Positions 48,659 through 53,609 of a stretch of 64,000 nucleotides of DNA are shown piece after piece. Positions within the stretch are counted from its first letter, which is position 1, and every line of letters begins with the position of its first letter. The stretch lies in assembly GCA_027449025.1 (NCBI GenBank), contig DAIDMK010000010.1, positions 1-64,000 of the forward strand. Direction: 5' to 3'. The notes under the pieces were generated by a model. It ran no database searches. It was not told the origin of the DNA and saw only the letters and a program-made list of their open reading frames with translations. Both the position numbers and the translations under genes were made by a program. Source of the stretch: Lutibacter sp. GTDB taxonomy: Bacteria; Bacteroidota; Bacteroidia; Flavobacteriales; Flavobacteriaceae.

Positions 48659-50341
48659 TTAAAATTTATCCGTTACACAACCTTCAGAAGCCGTGGAAAC
48701 GCTTTTAGCATATTTGTACAATATTCCTTTTTTATGTTTTGGCTCAGGCGCTTTCCATACTGCTTTTCTAAAAATCAGTTCATCCTCAGTCAATTTTACA
48801 TTGATTGTTTTATTTTTAGCATCAATCACAATCACATCACCATCTCTTACTAATGCAATTACACCGCCCGATTGTGCTTCTGGGGTAATATGTCCCACCA
48901 CAAATCCGTGCGTACCGCCCGAAAAACGTCCGTCCGTTACCAATGCAACAGATTTTCCCAAACCTGCACCCATAATCATAGAAGTAGGTTTTAACATTTC
49001 AGGCATTCCCGGTCCGCCTCTTGGGCCAACATAGCGTATCACCACCACATCGCCTTTTGCAACTTTTCCTGAACCAATGCCTTCATTTGCCTCTTGTTCT
49101 CCATCAAAAACAACTGCCTTTCCTTCAAATAAATCTCCTTCATTTCCGCTTATTTTGGCAACAGATCCATCCGTGGCCAGATTTCCGTATAAAATTTGAA
49201 TGTTCCCTGTTGATTTCAAGGCTTTTTCAGTGGTATGAATTACGTGCTGGTCTTCTTCAAAACTTAATGCTGTTACATTTGCCAAATTTTCTGCCAAAGT
49301 TTTGCCAGTAACCGTCATACAATCGCCGTACAACAATCCTTTTTCCAATAAATATTTCATCACGGCAGGTGTTCCGCCAACGCCGTGAACATCTTCCATT
49401 AAGTACTCTCCACTGGGTTTTAAATCGGCAATAACCGGAGTTCTGTCGCTCACACGTTGAAAATCTTCCAAGGTAAAATCGATATCCGCCGCATGGGCAA
49501 TCGCCAAATAATGCAATACGGCATTGGTTGATCCGCCTAAAGCATTTACCAAAGCCACTGCATTTTCAAGTGATTTTTTGGTAATGATATCCATGGGTTT
49601 TAAATCGAGTTCCAGTAAATTTTTAATGGCCGAAGCAATTCTTTCAGTTTCTGTTTCTTTTTGTGGATTTTCCGCAGGAATCGAGGAATTGTAAGGCAAT
49701 GCAAAACCCAAAGCTTCTATGGAGGATGCCATCGTATTGGCCGTGTACATTCCACCGCAGGCACCTGCTCCCGGAATGGCATTTTTTATAATTTCCCTAA
49801 ATTCTTCTTCTGAAATCACACCGGCAATTTTTTGTCCGAGTGCCTCAAAGGCAGAAACGATATTCAATTTTTTTCCTTGGTATCTTCCCGAAGCAATCGT
49901 TCCTCCGTAAACCATTAATGATGGTCGGTTCAATCGCAACATCGCTATAATGGCACCGGGCATATTTTTATCGCAGCCAACAACAGTCACCAAAGCATCA
50001 TAACTTTGAGCATTCATCACCACCTCAATGGAATCGGCAATAATGTCGCGTGAAGGCAAGGAATAATTCATTCCAGATGTTCCCATAGAAATACCATCAC
50101 TTACGCCAATGGTGTTAAAAACAAGTCCGACCTGTTGTTTTTTATTGACTTCCGCTTTAATATTATGGGCCAAATTGTTCAGGTGCATATTGCACGGATT
50201 TCCGTCGAAACCTGTGCTTGCAATGCCCACTTGTGGTTTTTTCATGTCTTCGTCTGTCAAACCAACTCCATATAACATGGCTTGGGCAGCAGGCTGAGTT
50301 TCGTCCTGTGTGACTCTTTTACTGTACTTATTTAATTGCAT
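48659..50341 (-). CDS. ilvD: Dihydroxy-acid dehydratase
   Basis: [42 protein letters not shown]. Confidence 0.97.
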
Positions 50342-50549
50342 TTATTTAGTATTCTTTTTAATTCTGTTAAAATTTATCTATAAACCTCAGTTTTAATCAC
50401 TGGTTTTTAATGAAGGTCAAATTTAAACCAGGTATTTGTTTTGTGCCCTTGACATTTGCTTGTTTTACAGTATCCACTTGTTGTTAATTTTAGTTATATT
50501 ACTGTAGCTCATATAGTTAAGCCTTTTGTTTTTACAATGATTATCCCAT

Positions 50550-50585
50550 AAAAAAACCTTCCTAATCGCTATTAGGAAGGTTTTT
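50550..50585 (-). terminator. Terminator/attenuator hairpin upstream of ilvD
   Basis: AACCTTCCTAAT-(AGCG)-ATTAGGAAGGTT followed by a minus-strand T7 (50556-50550). Confidence 0.85.
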
Positions 50586-50616
50586 ATAATTTTTTTATGA
50601 AACTAAAACAACATCC

Positions 50617-50682
50617 CTAACCTCCTTGTGAAATAATCACAGAGACACGAATAACGAGGATATTTAGAATTACTCTTTTCAT
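50617..50682 (-). CDS. Branched-chain amino-acid leader peptide MKRVILNILVIRVSVIISQGG
   Basis: 21-aa ORF with 12 Ile/Leu/Val, ending 32 nt before the terminator hairpin, upstream of ilvDBNC. Confidence 0.8.
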   Translation of the reverse strand: MKRVILNILVIRVSVIISQGG

Positions 50683-50737
50683 TAGAGGCAAATATGGGAA
50701 TTAATTATTAAAACCCACATAAAATATGCGTTTTTTT

Positions 50738-52291
50738 TTATTTTATCAATTTTCCTGCCTTTTTTCTTATGATTTCTTCTACAGAAACATGCTGAATTTT
50801 ACTTTCCAGCCAAGACAAAATATCCAAATATAAGAACGCACGTTTTTCATAAGGGTGATCTTCATATTTAAGCAATTCCTCATGCAAATTAACAAATGCT
50901 TTGTGAAGTTCCTGCGGATAAATATATTTTAAGTTTTTTAGGAATTGAATCATTTTGCGCTGTACCTGATGCAAATCGTTCATTTTAATCAAAAACTGAT
51001 AGGTTGATACAATTAATTTATCAATATTATCATCCAATCCGGCATCATAATGGGTCACCAGATTTAACACGCGGGAAAAGCACAACAGATCTTCACGCAT
51101 TTTCAACTCTTTATTGTCGATAATTTTTTCTAGGTAAAAAATACATTCCTCATTTTTGCCGGCGCCAAAATACATACAGGCAATTTTATAATAAAAAACC
51201 ATAATATGATGTGCATCAATATTGTTTTCATATTTATGGATTTCCTTCAACAAACTTGACACAAAACTCAGTCCTTCCGTAAATTTTCCCTCTAAAAAGT
51301 AATAGTTTAATTTATTTTGATTGGAGTATAAAAAAGCCAAAGTCTTGGTGTTTTCATTCATTGTAATATTTTCATCTTTGATATCGGATGTTAAATGTTC
51401 AAGAACACTGATATATTTTGTTTTAAGTTTGATTAAATAAAGTGATTCCAATAAATAATTGACACCTTTTAAATAAAATACCGGATTCTGGATTTTCATA
51501 TCTGGATTTTCCTCAAATAAATCGACCCATTTTTGGGAATACCGATAACTCAACACAAAATCCTGCAAAATAAAGCTGCGCCACAAATAAGCCTGGTACA
51601 AAAACAATTTTTCCCTGAAACCCAATTCAGAAAACTTATATTTCGGCAACTGTTTTTCAAAATAGGTCGTCACCCTTTTCAATCCCTTATTGTCTTTTAC
51701 ATAACCTTCTTTCAAAAACAAGCTATACAATTGAAGCGAAAGATTTGACAATTTACTGATACGAACGTTTTTTAAGCTCAGTTCTTTTGCCTGAATGGCC
51801 AATTCATCGGCACGGTTGCTCATGCTTCGAGTAATATATTGAGATTCTATCACTTTTTCAAACTCAACAATTTCATAAGCCAAATTGTTTTCGCCATTGT
51901 TAAGTGCCAACTCTTTTGCCTTCTCCAAAATTTTTAAGCTTTGCTTGTACAAGCCTTTATTGTACAAAATTGCGGAGAAATCAAATTGCTCCCTAATATG
52001 TGCCCTCACATTTTGATGTACGGGATTAAAGCGCAAACTCACCAAAATTTGCTTGTACAAATGTGCTTTTGTGTTTGATATTTGTTGCTTTTTGATGTTG
52101 GTTTTGCTTAAAATCAATTCATCATCATAGGTTGTCACTTTATCCAATAAATTAAATAAACTCATGAAGTTTGCTTCTGCATTTCCGCCCAATCTGCCCG
52201 CATACAGTTTAAATTGTCTCTTTTCCGATTTAGAAAGGGACTTCACCAACATAAAAAGCGCATCTTTTTGATCAATAGCCATTGTAACCAA
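50738..52291 (-). CDS. Conserved helical hypothetical protein, possibly TPR-like
   Basis: 517 aa, long helical repeats, no catalytic motif seen. Confidence 0.6.
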   Translation of the reverse strand: MVTMAIDQKDALFMLVKSLSKSEKRQFKLYAGRLGGNAEANFMSLFNLLDKVTTYDDELILSKTNIKKQQISNTKAHLYKQILVSLRFNPVHQNVRAHIREQFDFSAILYNKGLYKQSLKILEKAKELALNNGENNLAYEIVEFEKVIESQYITRSMSNRADELAIQAKELSLKNVRISKLSNLSLQLYSLFLKEGYVKDNKGLKRVTTYFEKQLPKYKFSELGFREKLFLYQAYLWRSFILQDFVLSYRYSQKWVDLFEENPDMKIQNPVFYLKGVNYLLESLYLIKLKTKYISVLEHLTSDIKDENITMNENTKTLAFLYSNQNKLNYYFLEGKFTEGLSFVSSLLKEIHKYENNIDAHHIMVFYYKIACMYFGAGKNEECIFYLEKIIDNKELKMREDLLCFSRVLNLVTHYDAGLDDNIDKLIVSTYQFLIKMNDLHQVQRKMIQFLKNLKYIYPQELHKAFVNLHEELLKYEDHPYEKRAFLYLDILSWLESKIQHVSVEEIIRKKAGKLIK

Positions 52292-52433: not shown

Positions 52434-53609
52434 ATGAGTATAAACAACGTTCAAATTTTTGACACAACCTTAAGAGATGGGGAGCAAGTGCCTGGCTGTA
52501 AGTTAAATACTGAACAAAAACTAATCATTGCAAACCGTCTTGACATTTTAGGCGTTGACGTGATTGAGGCAGGATTTCCAGTTTCTAGCCCGGGCGATTA
52601 TAATTCGGTTTTAGAAATTTCAAGAATAGTTAAAAATGCCACCGTTTGCGGACTTACACGAGCAAATCAAAAAGATATTGAAGTTGCAGCCGCAGCTTTA
52701 AAATATGCAAAACGTCCAAGAATTCATACAGGGATTGGAACTTCCGATTCACATATTCTATATAAATTCAACTCAACTCAGGACAAAATAATTGAACGCG
52801 CCATTCAGGCCGTTTCTTACGCAAAAAAATATGTTGAAGATGTTGAGTTTTATGCAGAAGATGCCGGAAGAACCGACAATGAATTTTTGGCTAAAATTTG
52901 CGAGCAGGTTATTAAAGCAGGTGCAACTGTTTTAAATATTCCCGATACCACAGGCTATTGTTTGCCCGATGAATATGGAGCAAAAATTAAATATTTGAAA
53001 GAAAATGTTAAAGGCATCCACAACGTAACGATTTCCTGTCATTGCCACAATGATTTAGGTTTGGCTACAGCCAACGCCATCGCTGGCGTTCAAAACGGCG
53101 CACGCCAAATTGAATGTACTATTAACGGAATTGGAGAGCGTGCTGGAAACACCGCCTTGGAAGAAGTCGTTATGATTTTAAAACAGCATCCATATTTGAA
53201 TTTAGACACCAATGTCAACACAAAATTATTGTACCAAACCAGTCAGTTAGTGCAGCAAAGTATGGGAATGATTGTGCAGCCAAACAAGGCTATTATTGGT
53301 GAAAATGCCTTTGCGCACAGTTCTGGAATCCATCAAGACGGCGTAATCAAAAACAGGGAAACCTACGAAATCATCAACCCGTCCGATGTTGGCGTAAACG
53401 AATCCTCTATTATATTAACTGCCCGAAGCGGAAGGGCTGCCTTGGCTTATCGCGCCAAAAACGTGGGTTACGACCTTACTAAAGTTGAATTGGACGATAT
53501 TTATCCTCAGTTTCTTCAATTTGCCGATCATCACAAAGAAGTGAACGATAACGACATTCACCATTTAATGGAGTTGAATCGAATCCATAAATCAAGTATT
53601 GCCATTTAA
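52434..53609 (+). CDS. leuA: 2-isopropylmalate synthase, short form lacking a C-terminal regulatory domain
   Basis: [55 protein letters not shown]; 391 aa. Confidence 0.92.

Follow-up and report, generated by a model that had tools for sequence, protein, structure and literature searches.

A predicted leader-peptide attenuator ahead of ilvDBNC in a Lutibacter-type genome, with serial relatives across the Flavobacteriaceae

Comparison of upstream sequences indicates that the ilvDBNC operon of a Lutibacter-type genome is very probably under classical ribosome-mediated transcription attenuation. This is a textbook mechanism, worked out in Proteobacteria and Actinobacteria. We studied a 64-kb stretch of DNA (the window), from a marine flavobacterium whose IlvD is 87–88% identical to that of named Lutibacter contigs. 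A preliminary description of this DNA had placed a leader peptide and attenuator ahead of ilvDBNC, and the short ORF, the terminator and the ilvD-first, same-strand operon were all found; its proposal that Ile/Leu/Val leader-peptide logic operates here was strongly supported by comparison, through a conserved frame, conserved helices and specificity for ilvD. The element and its operon are laid out as follows.

50689–50696, minus strand: probable sigma-A −7 box CATATTTG (Bacteroidota consensus TAnnTTTG)
50617–50682, minus strand: ORF of the putative leader peptide MKRVILNILVIRVSVIISQGG, with Ile/Val/Leu control codons; open in all 32 genus loci
50657–50664, minus strand: region 1 (AAUAUCCU, leader codons 7–9), predicted from the fold and congeners to pair with region 2 if no ribosome is present (protector helix 1:2)
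50627–50641, minus strand: control-codon hairpin UGUGA-UUAUU-UCACA, enclosed by the 1:2 structure (from the fold and compensatory changes)
50610–50621, minus strand: region 2, antiterminator 5′ arm GUUAGGGA-U-GUU, including the leader stop UAG
50571–50582, minus strand: region 3, terminator 5′ arm AACCUUCCUAAU, common to antiterminator and terminator
50555–50566, minus strand: region 4, terminator 3′ arm AUUAGGAAGGUU
50550–50554, minus strand: U-tract of the intrinsic terminator
50530–50544, minus strand: conserved post-terminator DNA element ATAATCATTGTAAAA, kept even in congeners without the terminator
50418–50425, minus strand: −7 box TAAATTTG of a probable second, attenuator-independent ilvD promoter
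48659–50341, minus strand: ilvD, first gene of the controlled operon
48654–46921, minus strand: ilvB
46918–46388, minus strand: ilvN, with an ACT domain
46215–44740, minus strand: ilvC

The leader ORF runs for 21 codons from ATG to TAG and is rich in codons for the end products of the pathway. Ile, Leu and Val make up 11 of the 21 residues of its predicted peptide (5 I, 4 V, 2 L), so that the preliminary description was right about the character of the ORF and one too high in its count of 12; base shuffles of this ORF gave a lower share (p=0.006). Between this ORF and ilvD lies a perfect intrinsic terminator, AACCTTCCTAAT-AGCG-ATTAGGAAGGTT followed by a T-run, at exactly 50582–50550 on the minus strand as previously described, with a gap from the leader stop codon of 34 nt rather than the 32 nt first given. 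The terminator is 208 nt from ilvD (start at 50341, minus strand), and the leader stop is 275 nt from that start. Folding of the 133-nt leader region (50550–50682), a check that the preliminary description had proposed, gave −33.4 kcal/mol against −21.0 kcal/mol for dinucleotide shuffles (z −4.0, 0/200). The combination of an ILV-rich ORF, a terminator and complementarity between stop region and terminator arm was detected in the 64-kb window at the leader site and at one weak-looking site (1692, plus strand), where an ORF MIILVALYSFFWK precedes an AT-rich hairpin, probably by chance.

LeuA, encoded at 52434–53609 on the plus strand, is short (391 aa), with HMGL-like and HCS_D2 domains, and a domain search found no recognisable C-terminal leucine-binding regulatory domain in it. 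The missing allosteric domain had earlier been noted correctly and taken as a reason why regulation might lean more on transcription, an argument that has no bearing on ilvDBNC, because leuA is divergently transcribed (from 52434, plus strand) and does not lie behind the attenuator, and because IlvN keeps its ACT domain.

Alignment of relatives for conserved ILV codons and alternative hairpins, proposed earlier as a check, revealed genus-wide conservation of the frame, the Ile/Val codons, the terminator and a competing helix that overlaps the stop codon, all specific to ilvD. We searched 37 congeners and used the 32 loci with enough sequence, the window among them; as the genus sequences are related, these species counts are not independent. 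An open, Ile/Val-rich leader frame and a terminator were present in 32/32 Lutibacter-type loci, the ORF having 19–26 codons and an ILV content of 33–61% (mean 50%), where the two alternative frames reached 34% and 11%. For leaders of 21 residues the consensus peptide, MK..I.NIISI.VSVIISQ, shows that Ile and Val dominate, with Leu minor. In the terminator, the 5′ arm motif CUUCCU (CTTCCT in DNA) was invariant (32/32) while the 3′ arm drifted through G–U changes, as expected for an arm that serves two helices. The leader stop codon lies in or beside UAGG, which was found at the stop in 31 of the 32 aligned sequences, counted by eye. The stem of the control-codon hairpin is kept through compensatory changes (UCUGUAA/UUACAGA, UUCUGUG/CACAGAA, CUUGUGA/UCACGAG and GUUGUGA/UCGCAAAC), for which Fisher p values are inflated by relatedness; it was assessed sequence by sequence, RNAalifold alone recovering the terminator only.

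We then placed a simulated ribosome on the leader codon by codon, with a footprint extending 12 nt past its codon. For stalls up to about codon 15–16, region 2 paired with region 3 over about 4–10 bp at 32/32 loci, the pairing appearing at a few loci (for example, L095) once the first codons were masked, and with the ribosome at the stop codon it fell to zero at all 32. Shuffling the spacer cut the pairing from the observed 6.5 bp to 1.3 bp (p≤0.05 in 27/32). By these computations, an antiterminator controlled by ribosome position competes with the terminator. Its conserved register is (G)UUAGGRA(NGUU):(AACC)UUCCUAA(U), with UUAGGRA:UUCCUAA as the core helix and the stop codon inside the 5′ arm. 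In the window, with the ribosome upstream, region 2 was computed to pair with 50578–50571 and 50582–50580, the stalled-state fold joining GUUAGGGA-U-GUU to AAC-C-UUCCUAAU.

That the leader end pairs with the terminator 5′ arm as an antiterminator had been proposed in the preliminary description and holds, but the register given there, GGAGGTT:AACCTTCC, is not the conserved one. It is physically possible in the window, where the isolated duplex reaches −7.5 kcal/mol versus −6.7 kcal/mol for the conserved core alone; GGAGG is nevertheless not conserved (GGAGGTT occurs in 9/32), and the stalled fold uses the UUAGGGA register together with GUU:AAC. Folded with no ribosome, most congeners favoured 1:2 over 2:3. 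In the full free leader of the window, 2:3 reached 8.7 bp versus 0.6 bp for 1:2, which is not clearly the stronger there; because 2:3 competes so well, the behaviour of this leader without translation is uncertain.

The window −7 box carries C instead of T at −12. The motif AnnTTTG was found 4–16 nt before the leader ATG in 30/32 congeners, compared with 43/397 other ATGs in the same regions. A TAnnTTTG box at −12 to −5 comes from the Flavobacterium psychrophilum transcription start site map (PMC9723704), and applying its spacing predicts a start at about 50684, with a 2-nt 5′ untranslated region, so that the leader may be translated as a near-leaderless mRNA.

On the attenuation model, the transcript would begin about 2 nt ahead of the leader ATG, and its near-leaderless ORF would be loaded with a ribosome. 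Given ample charged Ile-, Val- (and Leu-) tRNA, this ribosome would reach UAG and cover region 2, leaving region 3 to pair with region 4, and RNA polymerase would stop at the U-tract. Were Ile and Val tRNAs short, the ribosome would halt at the control codons, where it would cover region 1 and open the codon hairpin; region 2 would then be free to engage region 3 ahead of region 4 synthesis, no terminator would form and ilvDBNC would be transcribed. Without a ribosome, 1:2 would tend to form, giving termination.

Across the family the attenuators fall into two classes, unrelated in sequence and with separate leader peptides and terminators; we built covariance models from the class 1 (R1) and class 2 (R2) alignments. 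R1 gave 53 matches at E≤0.001 in 151 whole Flavobacteriaceae genomes; 44, including all of the 41 strongest, lie upstream of ilvD on the same strand, 40 of them within 431 nt. The other four are about 1.2 kb from ilvD, and in both of two checked, ilvE (branched-chain aminotransferase by NCBIfam) lies between attenuator and ilvD; in genomes with ilvE ahead of ilvD, the attenuators come before ilvE. R2 gave 14 matches in 101 genomes, 13 of them upstream of ilvD. In the genome of the window, R1 matched strongly at the leader site alone (4.9e-18); the next distinct site (C6:108142) was considered as a second copy and proved to be an ordinary terminator between convergent genes. A rule-based detector was positive for 62/113 real upstream regions (30/33 from the genus, 32/80 from the family) versus 0/339 dinucleotide-shuffled ones, and for 5/113 reverse strands.

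Three other readings of the element were weighed. The hairpin could be a constitutive terminator of the upstream gene (50738–52291, minus strand; a weak match, far under the cut-off, to NCBIfam NF058569, the BT_2802 family) and the ORF an AT-rich accident. In favour of this reading, gene and leader share a strand, about 56 nt separate the end of the gene from the leader ATG, and synteny holds in 30/32 congeners. We nevertheless rejected it as very unlikely, because leader and terminator remain whole at gene-to-leader distances that range up to about 550 nt, and because a promoter box sits directly before the leader; the conservation of the frame, the Ile/Val codons and the stop-overlapping antiterminator, and the family-wide specificity for ilvD (or ilvE–ilvD), also speak against it.

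It is extremely unlikely that a metabolite- or protein-sensing RNA, of riboswitch or T-box-like kind, drives the terminator and that the ORF is incidental. A terminator with an alternative helix is what such an RNA would show, but what is conserved upstream of it is a short ORF and not a large aptamer, and no Rfam family, including T-box and the ppGpp/ilvB motif, reached its gathering score on the window leader; a known riboswitch or T-box identity was rejected on this result. Exceedingly improbable, too, is an ORF that acts mainly through translation (by reinitiation or coupling to ilvD) or RNA stability rather than termination: the proposal of leader–gene reinitiation in bacteria, Bacteroidetes among them (PMC4833913), concerns spacings of about 10–15 bp, whereas here 275 nt and a strong terminator intervene.

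Attenuation may not be the sole control, as suggested by the probable second promoter, which lies in a conserved unstructured stretch and may bypass the attenuator from downstream. The 208 nt from 50342 to 50549 (minus strand) conserve ATAATCATTGTAAAA, a TAACTAT..AAA.CAG block, a second TGGATATTGTAAAA-like copy and TAAATTTG; TAnnTTTG occurred within −130 to −60 of ilvD in 30/33 congeners, against a background of 1.6% per 70 nt. Other genera carry TTGAACATCATAAAA in the equivalent place. As alifold found no conserved RNA fold between terminator and ilvD, we read this stretch as DNA, resembling a second promoter together with an operator array. L100, L105 and L115 lack the proximal hairpin and leader but retain, upstream of ilvD, a GGTTTTTTT...ATAATC(A/G)TTGTAAAA block, which suggests that the block has a role apart from termination.

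In 12 congeners, a second unit was found between the first terminator and ilvD, with a leader (for example, MNKKGTSIIILIQVIIICLIS) and a CCTGTATCA terminator. This class 2 unit follows the same logic as class 1, with UUGAUACAG at the UGA stop facing CUGUAUCAA in 12/12; the antiterminator arm UUGAUACA, which holds the UGA stop codon, matches UGUAUCAA beyond shuffles in 12/12. Tandem attenuators occur in 12 congeners and in at least 9 other genera, always in the order class 1 then class 2. Sorted by terminator motif, 80 family regions comprised 32 with class 1, 10 with class 2, 9 with both and 29 with neither. Tandem ILV leaders and terminators were also seen in the 700 nt upstream of ilvD matches in L024, L029 and L034 (an Ignavibacteriae MAG, Aquimarina and a Gaetbulibacter contig), so serial attenuators reach beyond Lutibacter. 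A search of the window for a second leader ORF and terminator in series found class 1 only.

The number of stages appears to have changed by both gain and loss. At L216:53-460, three leader-peptide attenuators precede ilvE in series, and the near-identity of the last two (MTTYTNSIIISIIIRSTE / MPTYTNSIIISIIIRSIE) indicates recent duplication of a whole attenuator. L100, L105 and L115 retain just the GGTTTTTTT end of the proximal terminator, which points to loss. Within the genus, the proximal terminator stem ends near −213 of ilvD regardless of class. Among tandem Lutibacter species, Leu codons were present in 12/12 class 2 leaders versus 4/12 class 1 leaders. On balance we favour a serial attenuator as ancestral for the branched-chain amino-acid operon of Flavobacteriaceae, with class 1 (CCUUCC) and then class 2 (CCUGUAUCA) passed successively by RNA polymerase, and with one, two or three stages arising through loss and duplication. 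The window would then be a derived single-stage form, plausibly produced by deletion between the two terminators at their identical AGGTTTTTTTAT ends; such a deletion would convert a tandem locus into the window arrangement. The two Lutibacter stages may sense different amino acids.

The mechanism is known; the element is undescribed in Rfam, and what is new is the two attenuator classes, often in series. The literature searched gave no direct report of ilv attenuation in Bacteroidetes and no description of the ilvD elements or their serial arrangement; a prior computational prediction is possible, for example in the survey of Lopatovskaya et al. (2010) or the supplement of PMC9723704. Comparison, including a test of specificity across whole genomes, here supports attenuation in a poorly studied phylum whose sigma factor differs and which lacks the Shine–Dalgarno sequence, at a leader ORF that seems almost leaderless. 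This makes coupling of the first ribosome to RNA polymerase directly testable in Bacteroidota. The natural one-, two- and three-stage series in relatives could show what a second terminator adds, be it dynamic range or multi-amino-acid logic, and the two covariance models could annotate an element so far without an Rfam entry.

In E. coli and Corynebacterium, ilv genes are known to be controlled by leader-peptide attenuation (PMC10272879). Escherichia coli ilvGMEDA and ilvB and Corynebacterium ilvBNC (the ilvB-II motif; PMC10272879) likewise carry a leader ORF rich in branched-chain codons and a terminator/antiterminator choice upstream of an ilv operon. The Lutibacter element differs in having no detectable Rfam sequence relation to these, a Bacteroidota promoter without Shine–Dalgarno sequence, an antiterminator arm that contains the stop codon, an ilvD-first operon and control codons that are mostly Ile and Val. 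Its near-leaderless start has a parallel in C. glutamicum, where leader peptide formation without a ribosome binding site is cited in PMC10272879. Within the same family, the F. psychrophilum study (PMC9723704) reports 'strong clues' for leader-peptide attenuation ahead of operons for amino-acid biosynthesis; its main text names pheA and hisG and has no mention of 'ilv'. Salmonella mgtCBR, in which two short ORFs in series likewise each control downstream transcription, has been described as a singular example of tandem attenuators (PMC3641672). That system senses ATP and proline, works without intrinsic terminators and serves no amino-acid operon (PMC3641672), whereas the Lutibacter relatives of the single-stage window have intrinsic terminators and Ile/Val/Leu codons at both stages.
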